9,500 nt of DNA. Source: Acidisarcina sp. (GTDB lineage Bacteria; Acidobacteriota; Blastocatellia; Pyrinomonadales; Pyrinomonadaceae). A program made the position numbers and the translations under genes. The DNA is taken from the NCBI GenBank assembly GCA_021155145.1, contig JAJNPX010000365.1, forward strand, positions 1-9,500, written 5' to 3'. The notes beneath the pieces are model-generated. The model worked only from the letters and a program-made list of their open reading frames with translations, searched no databases and had not been told where the DNA came from. Positions 4,490-8,330 of this stretch are shown here, piece by piece. Every line of letters starts with the position of its first letter. Position 1 is the stretch's first letter.

Positions 4490-6946
4490 ATGAGTTTCTC
4501 GCTGGAGACACTTGAATACGAAAGGCTTCTCGAACTTGTAAGCCGAAATGCGCAGACACCGATGGGTGTTGACCGCTTCGCCTACCTGCGCCCAAGATCC
4601 AGCCGCCAGGAACTCGATCGCGAACTTGCAGCCGTTTCCGAGACCATCGTCCTCAATGAAGAAAAACAGGTCTCGTGGTCGTTCAGCGGGCTCGAAGACC
4701 CTGCGGATGCGGTCGCGATCCTGAAGATCAAGAATGCGACGCTTGAGCCGAACCTCCTGCTTGAGTTGACGCGTGTATGCAATCAGGCACTGTTCGCCCG
4801 ATCGCTTGTTCAGCCTGAAAAAGAATTCGTTCCCGTGATCTGGTCGATCGTCGAGAGTGTCCCGCCGACGCTGCTCGGAACGATCGAAAAGATCAACAAA
4901 AAGCTGCGTCCGGGCGGCGAGATCGATGATTCTGCTTCGCCGGAACTTGCGGCGATTCGGCGTGAGATATCGAATCAGCGGGCGCGGCTGACCAAGTCGC
5001 TCGAATCCGTGATGCGTTCCGCGGGCGACGCGATACAGGATCAGATCGTCACGATGCGAAACGACCGCTTCGTGATCCCCGTCAAAGCTGACTTTCGCGG
5101 CAAGGTCGGCGGCGTCGCTCATGGGTTTTCATCGAGCGGCGCGACGGTTTTCGTCGAACCCCTCGATGCCATCGAGGCGAACAACGAACTCCAAAACCTG
5201 AAGGGCAAAGAGGAGCGCGAGGTCGCTCGCATTTTGTTTGAGCTGACCGAATCGCTTCGCGAACAGCTTCCCGCGGTCGAGGCGGCGGTCGATGCGGTCG
5301 CCGATCTCGACTTCATCAAGGCAAAAGTCGAATTTGCCCGGAAATTCAGCGCGATAGTTCCCGTTATTTCCGACAACGGTGTTTTGGACCTGACCGAAGC
5401 CCGACATCCGCTATTGGAAGAGAACATCCGGCAACAGCACGCGGAGACAGATGCGGTAGCGAATATGCCTCGTGTCGGTAGCCCGCACGTTAGTAAGGGC
5501 ACAAGCCAAGGGATAGTCCCGAGTTCATTCACGTTGACCTCCCAACGATCAGTAATGATCATCTCGGGTGCGAATGCGGGCGGAAAGACCGTCGTGCTCA
5601 AGACCGCAGGATTATTGAGCCTGATGGCTATTTCTGGTCTCCCGGTTCCGGCTAAGTCCGCAAAGATACCATATTACCGATCGGTTTTGGCGGACATCGG
5701 CGATCACCAGTCGCTCTCGGCAAACCTTTCTACATTCTCGTCGCATATGTCGAACATCGCCGGGATGATCCGCGAGTGTGCGCCGCCCTCGCTTGTACTG
5801 CTCGACGAAGCCGGCACGGGGACGGACCCGGAAGAAGGTTCGGCATTAGGTGTCGCGATCGTAGATCACTTTCGAAAGCAGGGTGCTCAGGTGATTGCTT
5901 CAACACACTATCGCGGGCTGAAGATCTATGCGGCAAATGACCCGAACGTCGTGAACGCATCGGTCGAGTTTGACGAGAAAACCCTCCAGCCGACATACAA
6001 ATTATTGATCGGGCTCGCCGGTGCATCGTCGGGCATCGAGATCGCCCGTAGATTTGGCATAAAGGACGAGGTCATCGATGCCGCCCGTCAGAACCTCGAC
6101 ATTTCAGCCCAGAAGGCCGAGACGTATCTGCAAAAACTCCAGACGGAGACAAAACAGGCCGAGGATCTTCGCATCGCCCTCGAAGAAGAACGCGAAGCGA
6201 CCGCGATGAAATACGCAGGGCTAGAGGTCGAGGCCGTAAAGAAAGAGAAGGAACGGCAAAAGCAGTTTGAGAGAACGCTGGCCGAGACGGTCGAATCATT
6301 TGACCGGCAGTCAAAGGCATTTCTTGAATCGATCGAAGACAAGGTCCTCAAGAACAAGCTCGAAAAGGAACGCTCCGCCCGCAAGGCAGAATTGAATCGT
6401 GCCGTTCTGTCCAAAGTCCAAGGTCCAAGGTCCAACGTCGCCCCCCAACAGGCGGAAACACGACCGGTTGAGAGTGTGCCGCTTGGCCCGGATACGATCG
6501 CCATTGGCTCTAGTGTCATCACGACGTTCGGCAACATAGGGACGATCGAGAAAATGGACAAAGAAACCGCCGAAGTCCTGGTCGGCGGAATGCGGCTGCG
6601 GCAAAAACTCGCCGACCTTCAGGCAGTGGCACCACAGGTGGAAACCCGACCGGTAGGAAGGGCGTCAAACCAACTCAGCAAACCCATCGACTCGCCCGAC
6701 GTACCCGCCGAGCTAAACCTCATCGGCAAAACCACCGCCGAGGCCGATTACGAACTCGACCGCTTTATCGACGAGGCTTACATGGCATCGTTGCCCCGCG
6801 TGCGCATCATCCACGGCTTTGGAACCGGAGCGCTCAAGAACTTCGTCCATCATTTCTTAAAGAATCACGACTTGGTCGAACGCTTCGCCTTCGCATCTTC
6901 CGACAAGGGCGGCAACGGCGCTACTATTGCGGAACTAAAGCTCTAA
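4490..6946 (+). CDS. mutS2: MutS2 (ATPase with C-terminal Smr domain)
   Basis: The 818-residue product has the MutS2 layout: N-terminal helical core and clamp; an ATPase with Walker A GANAGGKT (360-367), Walker B LVLLDEAGTG (Asp439, Glu440) and STHYRG (471-476); a long charged coiled coil (about 520-640); a small beta domain (about 665-715); and an Smr domain with HGFGTG (775-780) ending GGNGATIAEL. MutS2 proteins are known to suppress homologous recombination and, in Bacillus, to act on collided ribosomes; which applies here is not visible. The usual Smr LDLRG motif reads LNLIG (742-746). The protein is about 30 residues longer than usual. The excess maps to repeat-like insertions near 322-343 and in the linkers on both sides of the beta domain. 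It starts 25 bp after the DUF427 gene without a clear Shine-Dalgarno, and a transposase element begins right after its stop. Confidence 0.97.
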   Translation: MSFSLETLEYERLLELVSRNAQTPMGVDRFAYLRPRSSRQELDRELAAVSETIVLNEEKQVSWSFSGLEDPADAVAILKIKNATLEPNLLLELTRVCNQALFARSLVQPEKEFVPVIWSIVESVPPTLLGTIEKINKKLRPGGEIDDSASPELAAIRREISNQRARLTKSLESVMRSAGDAIQDQIVTMRNDRFVIPVKADFRGKVGGVAHGFSSSGATVFVEPLDAIEANNELQNLKGKEEREVARILFELTESLREQLPAVEAAVDAVADLDFIKAKVEFARKFSAIVPVISDNGVLDLTEARHPLLEENIRQQHAETDAVANMPRVGSPHVSKGTSQGIVPSSFTLTSQRSVMIISGANAGGKTVVLKTAGLLSLMAISGLPVPAKSAKIPYYRSVLADIGDHQSLSANLSTFSSHMSNIAGMIRECAPPSLVLLDEAGTGTDPEEGSALGVAIVDHFRKQGAQVIASTHYRGLKIYAANDPNVVNASVEFDEKTLQPTYKLLIGLAGASSGIEIARRFGIKDEVIDAARQNLDISAQKAETYLQKLQTETKQAEDLRIALEEEREATAMKYAGLEVEAVKKEKERQKQFERTLAETVESFDRQSKAFLESIEDKVLKNKLEKERSARKAELNRAVLSKVQGPRSNVAPQQAETRPVESVPLGPDTIAIGSSVITTFGNIGTIEKMDKETAEVLVGGMRLRQKLADLQAVAPQVETRPVGRASNQLSKPIDSPDVPAELNLIGKTTAEADYELDRFIDEAYMASLPRVRIIHGFGTGALKNFVHHFLKNHDLVERFAFASSDKGGNGATIAELKL
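5474..5500. repeat. Repeat-like 27-bp block inserted in frame in mutS2
   Basis: This block, which includes GGTAGCCCGCACGTTAGTAA, encodes VGSPHVSKG at about residues 329-337. It lies in a stretch of about 20 residues that ordinary MutS2 proteins lack between the HPLLE motif and the strand before Walker A. The wording resembles short dispersed intergenic repeats I associate with Acidobacteriota genomes, but no second copy is present in this window, so its repeat status is inferred. Confidence 0.4.
6410..6437. repeat. Heptamer tandem repeat (TCCAAGG, four copies) within mutS2
   Basis: Four consecutive 7-bp units read TCCAAAG, TCCAAGG, TCCAAGG and TCCAACG. They encode part of the linker between the coiled coil and the beta domain of MutS2 (around SKVQGPRSNV). 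Heptamer arrays of this sort usually lie between genes. Because 7 is not a multiple of 3, gain or loss of one unit would shift the mutS2 frame. Confidence 0.8.
6448..6468 (+). repeat. Short direct repeat in mutS2, copy A
   Basis: This 21-bp segment matches 6634-6654 at 19 of 21 positions and is read in the same codon frame; both encode ETRPV after a V-A-P-Q run. It sits in the linker before the small beta domain of MutS2, directly after the heptamer array. Confidence 0.65.
6634..6654 (+). repeat. Short direct repeat in mutS2, copy B
   Basis: The second copy of the 21-bp segment at 6448-6468, with two mismatches. It lies in the linker between the beta domain and the Smr domain, so the two copies bracket the beta domain. 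Confidence 0.65.
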
Positions 6947-6975
6947 GCATAGCCACGCCGTTTACGGCGTGGTCA
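6947..6975 (+). repeat. Left terminal inverted repeat with hairpin
   Basis: The 29 bp are the exact reverse complement of 7485-7513. Inside, CCACGCCG (6953-6960), loop TTTA and CGGCGTGG (6965-6972) form an 8-bp hairpin preceded by CATAG, similar to the tetranucleotide at the foot of REP hairpins. Being right behind the mutS2 stop it could also stop transcription or protect the mRNA 3' end, although there is no T-tract. Confidence 0.88.
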
Positions 6976-6995
6976 CCGTGCAAACAACAACCCCA

Positions 6996-7015
6996 AAGGG
7001 CGTTTTAACGCCCTT
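6996..7015. repeat. Inner left palindrome of the transposase element
   Basis: AAGGGCGTT (6996-7004) and AACGCCCTT (7007-7015) pair around a 2-nt centre, 12 bp upstream of the transposase ATG. A mirrored copy with one stem mismatch lies at 7449-7466. It may be a subterminal transposase-binding hairpin, or a hairpin that limits read-through translation from mutS2. Confidence 0.7.
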
Positions 7016-7027
7016 ATCTACGAGATA

Positions 7028-7435
7028 ATGTCGAAACGAGTCTATTCGGAGATCAATTTACATCTAACGTGGCATACCAAGAACAATCTGCCAATGATTC
7101 GCGGGAACATGGAAAACAATCTTCACAAATTTCTCAAGAACAAGGTAGTCGAAACTTCGGACGCATATTTCCACGCAATCGGCGGCATCGAAGATCACGT
7201 ACATCTTGCTTTTTCCGTGCGCCCATCGCTCGATCTGGATAAATGGATTGGTCAATTAAAGGGTACGAGTTCACACGAATTTGGCAAGGAGTTACAATGG
7301 CAGAACGGATACGGAATTGTAAGCTTCGGGACTAAGGATTTGCCCTGGGTTGTGGCTTACGTAAAGAATCAAAAAGAACACCATTCGCGGGGAACGATTT
7401 TTGATCGATTGGAGCGAACTGAAAATGACGGCTAA
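7028..7435 (+). CDS. IS200-like Y1 transposase (HUH family, REP-associated type)
   Basis: The 135-residue product belongs to the Y1 transposase family. The HUH motif is IEDHVHLAF with His57 and His59 as metal ligands, and the catalytic tyrosine is Tyr111 in VVAYVKNQKEHH, with the Asn, Gln and His residues on the same helix that usually complete the site. The N-terminus (INLHLTWHTKNNLPM) is the usual first strand. It would cut and join single-stranded DNA through a 5'-phosphotyrosine link, recognising the hairpins at the element ends. All key residues are present and the frame is intact, so it could be active. It is slightly shorter than typical IS200 TnpA. No TnpB or other partner is present. 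The start is supported by a GAG a few bases upstream and by the N-terminal strand beginning right after it. The gene is AT-richer than mutS2, in keeping with a mobile origin. Confidence 0.93.
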   Translation: MSKRVYSEINLHLTWHTKNNLPMIRGNMENNLHKFLKNKVVETSDAYFHAIGGIEDHVHLAFSVRPSLDLDKWIGQLKGTSSHEFGKELQWQNGYGIVSFGTKDLPWVVAYVKNQKEHHSRGTIFDRLERTENDG

Positions 7436-7448
7436 AGCCTTAACAGTA

Positions 7449-7466
7449 AGGACGTTAAAACGCCCT
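7449..7466. repeat. Inner right palindrome of the transposase element
   Basis: AGGACGTT (7449-7456) and AACGCCCT (7459-7466) pair with one mismatch around AA. The sequence is the mirror image of the inner left palindrome at 6996-7015 with a single change, so the element is symmetric at two nested levels. Confidence 0.68.
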
Positions 7467-7484
7467 ATGGTTTGGATGCCAACT

Positions 7485-7513
7485 TGACCACGCCGTAAAC
7501 GGCGTGGCTATGC
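7485..7513 (-). repeat. Right terminal inverted repeat with hairpin
   Basis: Exact reverse complement of 6947-6975. The stem is CCACGCCG (7488-7495) with CGGCGTGG (7500-7507) and the loop is TAAA, the mirror of the TTTA loop on the left, which shows that the repeat is truly inverted. Confidence 0.88.
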
Positions 7514-7622
7514 CCTCAGATTCTTCCACCGTGCCTATCGGGACTACGATAATTTCTTTCAGCTTTCCCAGCGATGGATCGTGGGCAATTAACGCATTGT
7601 CGGCTTCGGGGACGAAAACAAA

Positions 7623-8330
7623 ATGAACCTGCCCCGAATATATTTGATCGCGATCCTGCTCCTGCTATTCGGTGTCGGTTCGCGCGGCCAGGAACCGCCG
7701 AAAGCTGTATTGGTGGATGAACACGGTCAGCTACCCTGTGACGACTCGCTTGGAAGATTGGATGTATGGTATGCGGAGATCAGTAATCATTCGGGTTCGA
7801 TCGGACTAGCTGTTATCTCAGGTGCGCGCGAAGAGAAACATCTTATTGCTTTTCGGCACTCATTGATGGAGACTAACGCGAGGTTTCGAGGAGCTTCCGA
7901 ACAGCTTAAGTTAAAGTATGTAAGGGCGGTGTCACGAGGACCTTTGATGGTTCAGTTATGGCGAATTCCTGCAGGAGCATCAGAACCGAGAATTGAGAAT
8001 GTTGATAATACATACACACTTCCTAATGACATCCGACCATTTCTACTTGGAAAAGAGTATCCAGATTATCTGGGCGACAACATTTGTCCGGGTGAACCTG
8101 CGGACCAAAGAATCTTCGCGAGTTTCCTCAAGGAAAATCCCTCGTCACGCGGAAACATTGTCGTCCGCGAAAGAACATTAGCGAAAGCTCGGGCAAAAGG
8201 GGCCCGCCTATTGAGGACATTCAAGTTGGAATACGGCATCCCTTCCTCCCGACTTCGTATTTTTCCTAGAAAGCGATCGATACCTTCGGACAATTTCGAA
8301 CCTATCGTAGAATACTGGTATCTTCCCTAG
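7623..8330 (+). CDS. Secreted protein of unknown function with two similar Cys-led domains
   Basis: The 235-residue product begins with a strong signal peptide (hydrophobic core YLIAILLLLFGVG, cleavage probably near residue 22-23), so it should be exported. I do not recognise a named family, but similar small exported proteins starting VDEHGxLPCDD are, from memory, common in Acidobacteriota. Two segments look like diverged copies of one domain: Cys39 to Pro116 (78 residues, ending VQLWRIP) and Cys155 to Pro235 (81 residues, ending VEYWYLP). Each starts with a Cys-acidic run and a helix. A glycine before a hydrophobic strand follows (SIGLAVI and RGNIVVR), then an Arg/Lys-rich helix (in copy 2 leading to GIPSSRLRIF), and a closing aromatic strand. 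Copy 2 loosely recalls an OmpA-C-like fold; this is a guess. Only weak purine-rich sequence precedes the start. It may be transcribed with the lipoprotein gene 49 bp downstream. Confidence 0.85.
   Translation: MNLPRIYLIAILLLLFGVGSRGQEPPKAVLVDEHGQLPCDDSLGRLDVWYAEISNHSGSIGLAVISGAREEKHLIAFRHSLMETNARFRGASEQLKLKYVRAVSRGPLMVQLWRIPAGASEPRIENVDNTYTLPNDIRPFLLGKEYPDYLGDNICPGEPADQRIFASFLKENPSSRGNIVVRERTLAKARAKGARLLRTFKLEYGIPSSRLRIFPRKRSIPSDNFEPIVEYWYLP

Follow-up and report, generated by a model that had tools for sequence, protein, structure and literature searches.

The window analysed here, a 9,500-nucleotide stretch of contig JAJNPX010000365.1 from Acidisarcina sp., carries at positions 6947-7513 a compact element in which a single Y1 (HUH) transposase-like gene is enclosed by two nested pairs of mirrored hairpins. 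Its left neighbour is mutS2 (4490-6946, + strand, 818 aa), and the outer repeat of the element begins directly past the mutS2 stop codon. The outer inverted repeats (6947-6975 on the + strand and 7485-7513 on the - strand) span 29 nt and are 100% complementary, while the inner pair (6993-7016 on the + strand and 7447-7470 on the - strand) spans 24 nt with 22 matches (92% complementary). The left outer repeat contains a TAG (6950-6952) followed by a hairpin, designated B (6953-6972), with an 8-bp stem and a TTTA loop, and the left inner repeat contains hairpin A (6996-7015), whose stem is perfect. The right-hand counterparts, read on the - strand, are hairpin B' (7488-7507), with its TAG at 7508-7510, and hairpin A'. 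The tag at the outer hairpin of the window reads ATAG. Folded as single-stranded DNA, the left 88 nt form two 8-bp hairpins (z -5.3, with 0 of 200 shuffles equally good), and the right 88 nt, taken on the inward strand, form an outer hairpin of 8 bp and an inner one of 7 bp (z -2.9, with 2 of 200 shuffles equally good). The sole stem mismatch in the window lies in the right inner hairpin, where it is an A.C pair on the + strand and a G.T pair on the inward (-) strand. A sequence-only reading of this locus had described 29-bp perfect inverted repeats with an 8-bp hairpin in each, and a second mirrored palindrome pair with one stem mismatch; complementarity and folding confirm both descriptions. 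The layout can be taken to exceed chance because the same layout recurs in relatives.

Beyond the right repeat, 109 bp (7514-7622) precede a hypothetical gene (7623-8330, + strand) whose homologues lie behind mutS2 in relatives. The - strand of this spacer is open and has a coding-like look, perhaps that of a gene remnant, and by eye the spacer shows no match to the short spacer of genome G067. A homologue of the hypothetical gene was found within 1.5 kb behind mutS2 in 8 of 30 relatives examined. In four of them (G084, G015, G067 and G001) this homologue, at 25-41% identity, follows mutS2 directly, at 0-51 bp, and no element intervenes. A family Y1 gene occurs within 1.5 kb behind mutS2 in G001 only, where it lies beyond the next gene and not before it. 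Since the element is absent behind mutS2 in these four relatives, its presence in the window looks derived; the relatives without the element are too diverged to fix the exact joints of the window insertion.

The transposase-like gene (7028-7435, + strand) is an intact open reading frame of 135 codons, in agreement with the earlier description of a single Y1/HUH gene between the repeats. Its product matches the Pfam model Y1_Tnp (66.7 bits), with the HVH motif at residues 57-59 and tyrosine Y111 within YVKNQKEHH, an instance of the motif Y---Q--HH; in an alignment of 35 relatives neither histidine varies, and conservation of the tyrosine reaches at least 90%. A Pfam scan of the seven open reading frames of the window found no TnpB. 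The window protein alone retrieved no match among PDB sequences, and a profile of the family retrieved IS608 and ISDra2. The predicted structure (pLDDT 85.4) has ISDra2 and IS608 TnpA as its best PDB matches, with RAYT 4er8 only at rank 28.

A 66-row tree was built with 45 of the 81 family loci (47 were picked for spread, and 2 were dropped on account of a listed match overrunning the stop codon). The window family forms one clade (99/99), and IS608, ISDra2 and the TnpB-linked proteins form a separate one (100/100). Proteins resembling subclass 1.2 from the same genomes surround the window family in a weakly supported order, including a 90/73 grouping with the long-branched L139, and the one cyanobacterial protein in the tree groups with IS605. 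The E. coli RAYT is very distant, on a long branch that makes its position unsure. Subclass 1.2 is defined by Y---Q--HH and low copy number (Quentin et al. 2018, PMC6006769), two features that the window family shares together with a short core. Unlike subclass 1.2, the window protein ends at residue 135 and, as judged by eye, is devoid of the conserved C-terminal domain, the F--E...Y-W tail seen in the 1.2-like proteins of loci L126-L138. Class-2 TnpAREP proteins are defined by Y---NP at the catalytic tyrosine (PMC6006769), where the window protein has YVKNQKEHH. By motif and tree position, the window protein is thus to be read as a Y1 protein of the IS200 side, in a clade of its own that appears to lie near subclass 1.2 and not among class-2 RAYTs. 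Of the term REPtron-like used in the sequence-only reading, the layout of inward tagged hairpins flanking the gene is supported; tree, Y---Q motif and NTAG tag all speak against membership of class 2.

This placement bears on the simplest alternative, namely that the locus holds an ordinary IS200-type insertion sequence whose ends are symmetrical by chance and which moves as a single-stranded circle with both ends read on one strand. The class-1 Y---Q motif and HUH/Y1 fold shared with IS200/IS605 TnpA (IS608, ISDra2), the top structural matches, a score of 56.2 bits with the NCBIfam IS200 model (just above its cut-off of 55) and the absence of the element behind mutS2 in four relatives would all be expected under that account. 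Its weaknesses lie in the separation of the family clade from TnpB-linked IS605 and IS608, and in the properties of the ends and copies described below.

Homologues of the window protein are numerous, with 1258 at E <= 1e-10 among 1303 candidates; among the 120 listed, few are named by organism, and those are all Pyrinomonadaceae or Acidobacteriota. Scanning species genomes yielded 117 places, and the best 80 of these 117 loci come from Acidobacteriota and Planctomycetota, except for one from Chloroflexota and one from an unassigned bacterium. Plasmids, queried with the window protein, yielded mostly IS605-type proteins; two Bacteroidota plasmids were also among the matches. Comparison of each left flank with the reversed right flank revealed the same mirrored layout in many relatives, and the order going inward is an A-out hairpin (at many loci), TAG and hairpin B, hairpin A and the gene, mirrored on the other side. 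The flanks of 77 of the 81 loci were tested (4 were too short), the right flank of some loci beginning a few codons beyond the true stop. Under a strict test, an inward TAG hairpin is present on both sides at 47 of 77 loci, on one side at 21 (the Chloroflexota locus among those with B on one side only) and on neither at 9; the corresponding outward hairpin occurs on both sides at 4 and on one side at 23 of the 77. Among 439 pairs of control stretches 1-5 kb away, none had the hairpin on both sides and 29 had it on one, and a looser test gave 48 of 77 loci against 1 of 187 controls. Inverted palindromes thus flank the gene, as in a REPtron, and do so in both Acidobacteriota and Planctomycetota. 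Loops of the gene-flanking B hairpins are mostly TTTA or TTCA, and an inner hairpin lies between B and the gene on 84 of 107 sides.

A G precedes TAG in 11 of the 107 B hairpins examined in the family, so the tag is best written NTAG and is seldom the GTAG (or GTGG) found at the palindrome foot in class 2. The automatic REP search of Quentin et al. 2018 required GTAG or GTGG (PMC6006769), and with GTAG in 11 of 107 such a search would miss most of the window family. Subclass 1.2 is entered in that work as "no" for REPs and as occurring mainly in Cyanobacteria and Bacteroidetes (PMC6006769), and titles and abstract openings of the literature searched mention no REPs in connection with subclass 1.2 or the window family. 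We applied an inward-TAG test, with loops of up to 24 nt allowed, to fifteen 1.2-like loci (L126-L136, L138, L139, L121 and L122, without L137, which yielded no protein). Inward TAG hairpins are present on both sides at 9 of 15, on one side at 2 and on neither at 4, compared with outward hairpins on both sides at 1 and on one side at 3; the loci with inward hairpins include some from Acidobacteriota and from Persicobacter. The same test detected no inward TAG hairpin at E. coli rayT or at the IS605-type genes L123 and L124.

Two irregular arrangements were seen at individual family loci. The left end of L001 (3390-3550) carries four tandem B hairpins repeated every 42 bp, and the stems of two of these contain mismatches. 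Loci L002 and L013 (around 5.0-6.7 kb), from two genomes, have matching flanks and occupy the same site, with Y1 genes from different branches of the family, as if hairpin arrays attracted or exchanged elements.

The stem of B was analysed with a structure-blind anchor (TAG, eight free bases, TTNA, eight free bases). Inward anchor matches pair at 7 or 8 of the 8 positions in 92 of 103 cases; in the control stretches, 24 of 35 anchor matches are likewise well paired, because these neighbourhoods contain further copies. After removal of 11 of the 103, none of which had more than 5 pairs, 54 distinct stems with at least 6 pairs each remained, in which 97.9% of cells are paired, a figure favoured by the selection of stems by pairing. 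Cells changed on both sides number 114, as against 38.9 in shuffles, and the covariation score is 0.802, compared with 0.168 for shuffled stems (0 of 500) and 0.05-0.20 with the partners slid; a smaller set of 42 of the 54 stems, without 9 loop variants and 3 others, scores 0.771. This covariation argues that the B hairpin is selected as a structure. The left and right B hairpins of one locus share 17.6 of 20 positions, and B hairpins of different loci share 13.5 (34 loci; 0 of 10,000 permutations), and the mirror-image identity of the two ends noted in the sequence-only reading proves to be a rule of the family.

The mismatches that persist in these stems are polarised with respect to strand. 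Read on the TAG strand, mismatches at the listed places comprise 29 G.T, 2 A.C and 8 others over 77 distinct genome-by-sequence cells, or 15 G.T, 2 A.C and 7 others over 39 distinct sequences. The gene-flanking B hairpins give 15 G.T, 2 A.C and 5 others over 53 distinct stems, a count that leaves aside one odd stem of the 54 and also the first stem pair, which inflated G.T (32 to 3 with it, 15 to 2 then). Inner A hairpins, read on the TAG-bearing strand and counted over flanks instead of distinct sequences, give 33 G.T, 4 A.C and 2 others. These counts are not independent, one T.G variant being widespread, and the relatedness of copies weakens them. The single mismatch of the window follows the same rule of G.T on the TAG strand. 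Since neutral change would affect both strands equally, the folded TAG strand appears to be what is kept, and, as the ends face each other, the favoured strand would be the coding strand at the left end and its opposite at the right end. The functional hairpin, in other words, would belong to one strand, and to opposite strands at the two ends.

Both end hairpins of IS200/IS605 elements are read on one strand; in the window family, the opposite orientation of the ends and the mismatch polarity place the functional hairpin on opposite strands, as far as can be judged from the stems. The earlier suggestion that either end could serve as left end fits this polarity, by which each end would be the left end of its own strand. 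The same data bear on the possibility that the hairpins are regulatory only, acting as transcription terminators or as mRNA structures guarding the gene. Hairpins near genes frequently act on RNA, and the inner hairpins of the window lie only about 12-16 bp from the coding region, as such a role would lead one to expect. Against it, no T-run follows the hairpins of the window when the sequence is read by eye, polarity tracks the TAG, the B hairpins of inward pairs favour opposite strands and so could not both be used by one transcript, and copies occur away from the gene. We assign this reading very little probability.

Occurrence away from the gene was assessed by running a stem-blind pattern, TAGCCACGNNNTTNANNNCGTGG, on the genomes of 21 relatives, some of which had served in its design. 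It matched 183 times in 20 of 21 genomes, with at most 29 matches per genome, and a reversed control pattern matched once in all. Positions are available for 150 listed matches in 18 genomes, the other 33 including all those of G002 and G014. Among the listed places, 97 of 150 are separated by more than 600 bp from any family gene or relic. Thirteen of the 18 listed genomes have hairpins at such a distance, and in the remaining 5 of 18 they occur only beside the gene. Away from the gene they stand singly, in inward pairs and in mosaics. Close pairs, within 170 bp, are inward in 25 cases, outward in 3 and same-way in 4 over the 150 listed places, and inward in 17, outward in 0 and same-way in 2 when restricted to places away from genes. 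Singlets outnumber pairs, and the inward doublet is the commonest close arrangement, which is that of REPINs, described as inverted REP doublets (PMC3116915). A set of 12 genomes of Planctomycetota type (11 Planctomycetota and one unassigned), searched with their own stem, yielded 129 places in 11 of 12 genomes (control 0), on at least two contigs in 9 of 12, and their pairs within 230 bp are inward in 31 cases, outward in 3 and same-way in 1. Relatives of the window thus contain the dispersed cognate palindromes typical of a REPtron. Separately, seven viral contigs (L284-L290) carry one B-type hairpin each.

The gene, by comparison, is kept at low copy. Family matches above 100 bits number one to two per genome in 21 of 21 relatives and three in G071, although these genomes also contain more distant Y1 genes. 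Several near-identical copies per genome, the situation reported for IS200/IS605 (PMC6006769), are not found in the window family. Facing ends with the functional hairpin on opposite strands, few copies, a clade of its own and hairpins in inward pairs far from the gene thus already disfavour an ordinary IS200-type insertion sequence, which we regard as unlikely.

Hairpins and gene also go together across genomes. Within one order, hairpins are present in 28 of 32 gene-positive and 11 of 87 gene-negative genomes, and among gene-positive genomes outside the 21-genome pattern scan the proportion is 8 of 12, against the same 11 of 87 (p 1.4e-4), several of these genomes holding loci from the 80 kept. 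Eleven genomes have the hairpin and no gene at E <= 1e-30, and four have the gene without the stem searched for.

Several gene-less units have the form B-A-A'-B', like the element minus its gene, and L118, with 39 codons left between its B ends, represents an internal-deletion intermediate. Two such units can be compared between sister genomes at orthologous sites. The unit at L095 is present in G007 and absent in G002, G006 and G010; in these three the genes bordering the site almost abut, and about 346 bp are missing, more than the hairpin unit itself. The L091 unit occurs in G007, G002 and G010 but not in G003 or G004, and in G010 an identical pair change is found in both of its B stems, meaning that its ends have changed in concert. 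Many B copies of G007 sit inside mosaics of other palindromes, and these mosaics, together with the roughly 346 bp missing at the L095 site, leave the extent of the moving unit ambiguous. In L081-L100, all from G007, unrelated palindromes such as GGAGGCGGCTTGCCGCC surround many single B hairpins; they are probably other REP families.

Genome G061 holds 45 B hairpins and no intact family gene, only a relic, and was rejected as proof of REPs moved in trans. Its hairpins ride in a 275-293 bp element (L177-L196, L210-L224) with a 20-bp terminal repeat, CTCACCTTACGCGGTTTTGA, whose 84 matches imply about 40 copies; the 20 copies inspected in sequence carry the hairpin layout. Both ends are present in 26 of 35 copies examined, and exact target duplications of 7-8 bp flank 16 of these 26, as against 5 of 650 cross pairs. 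Because such duplications are the mark of a DDE transposase and not of a Y1 enzyme, the copy number in G061 is due to another transposase. The sequence-only reading had proposed that the hairpins may be spread alone: 13 of the 18 listed relatives do have them at a distance from the gene and 5 only beside it, and the copies of G061 are a DDE-type MITE.

It may accordingly be asked whether the array is in general a passenger of MITEs, multiplied by unrelated DDE-type transposases with the Y1 gene as a bystander. The G061 copies, with terminal repeats, duplications and a mere gene relic, are what such a process would leave, and two hairpin units of G021 have common flanks beyond B. Outside G061 the explanation finds less purchase: its terminal repeat has 0-2 matches in each of 8 other genomes, all with 3 mismatches; the window has no 7-8 bp target duplication at its ends (AGCTCTAA before the element and CCTCAGAT after it); and hairpins lie on both sides of the gene in Acidobacteriota as well as Planctomycetota, their presence tracking that of the gene. 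We therefore hold a passenger role to be quite improbable. The two G021 units (L114 and L115) possibly share a short terminal repeat, GTAGTGAA...TTCAYTAC, with no clear target duplication by eye.

The element anatomy, its conservation and covariation, strand polarity, low gene copy, gene-less inward pairs and presence or absence at given sites are all seen in relatives. We consider it likely that positions 6947-7513 constitute a REPtron-like element, formed by an IS200-side Y1 gene in two mirrored hairpin pairs of which the outer is TAG-tagged, and we predict that its enzyme binds the hairpin of the TAG strand as single-stranded DNA and mobilises the units. Such an enzyme would bring palindrome spreading to a branch of transposases that is on record as lacking it. 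That it is the Y1 enzyme that moves the hairpins is our inference. As a model we use TnpAREP, which binds and processes the REP and not its complement (PMC8266576). By analogy, the substrate recognised by the Y1 enzyme would be the TAG strand in single-stranded form, folded at the tagged hairpin, and the TAG would serve as a guide for placing the cleavage site, the role proposed for GTAG in TnpAREP. A strand that becomes exposed (for instance at a replication fork) would present a single active hairpin, located at the 5' end of that strand, so that either end could act as left end, and the enzyme would cut and rejoin at the active hairpin on whichever strand is single. Units of the form B-A-A'-B' would then spread in a REPIN-like manner, served in trans by a low-copy gene.

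Comparison with known systems delimits this reading. The window family resembles the REPtron/TnpAREP systems of E. coli rayT and of Pseudomonas REPINs in its low-copy Y1 gene between inverted tagged palindromes, its dispersed palindromes, its inward doublets and its strand-specific hairpins. It differs from class-2 REPtrons in having Y---Q--HH instead of Y---NP, NTAG instead of GTAG/GTGG and two to three hairpins per end, and in its distance from the E. coli RAYT in the tree. It resembles subclass 1.2 in motif, core and copy number, and canonical 1.2-like loci also bear inward TAG hairpins; it departs from that subclass in its tail-less 135-aa protein and separate clade. From IS200/IS605 it is set apart by ends that mirror each other and by few copies. 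TIRtrons (TIRYT) are Y1 genes with long inverted repeats, some of them double palindromic, and include members from Acidobacteria (De Nocera 2013, PMC3733652); 20 of 26 TIRYT fall in subclass 2.1 and the rest in 2.2 and 2.5 (PMC6006769). The window element is like them in carrying a Y1 gene between inverted repeats, and unlike them in that the TIRYT repeat motif, GGGGWSAS, is missing from 6947-7016 and 7447-7513 as read by eye.

In a wider reading, which we put forward as a serious possibility falling a little short of an even chance, the IS200 side would hold a second REP world. Its members, subclass 1.2 and the sister clade of that subclass, would be REPtrons whose mirrored ends carry NTAG tags and several hairpins each, with REPIN populations of their own in Acidobacteriota, Planctomycetota, Chloroflexota and Bacteroidota, missed by searches that require GTAG. 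Were this the case, a Y1 transposase would have been tamed into a palindrome-spreading gene at least twice, or before the split of classes 1 and 2. The spread of REPs, and the reason for which a low-copy transposase gene serves scattered palindromes, are open questions studied mainly in the class-2 RAYTs of Proteobacteria. The window family would provide an independent system in which to address them, distinguished by its tag, by a shorter enzyme that lies close to the well-studied IS608 and by mirrored ends, and one in which intermediates are visible: the full element, an internally deleted copy, the gene-less four-hairpin unit and unit-free sites. The roles of tag, hairpin strand and end symmetry could then be compared across two lineages, and the family would explain a share of the palindromes found between genes in Acidobacteriota and Planctomycetota.
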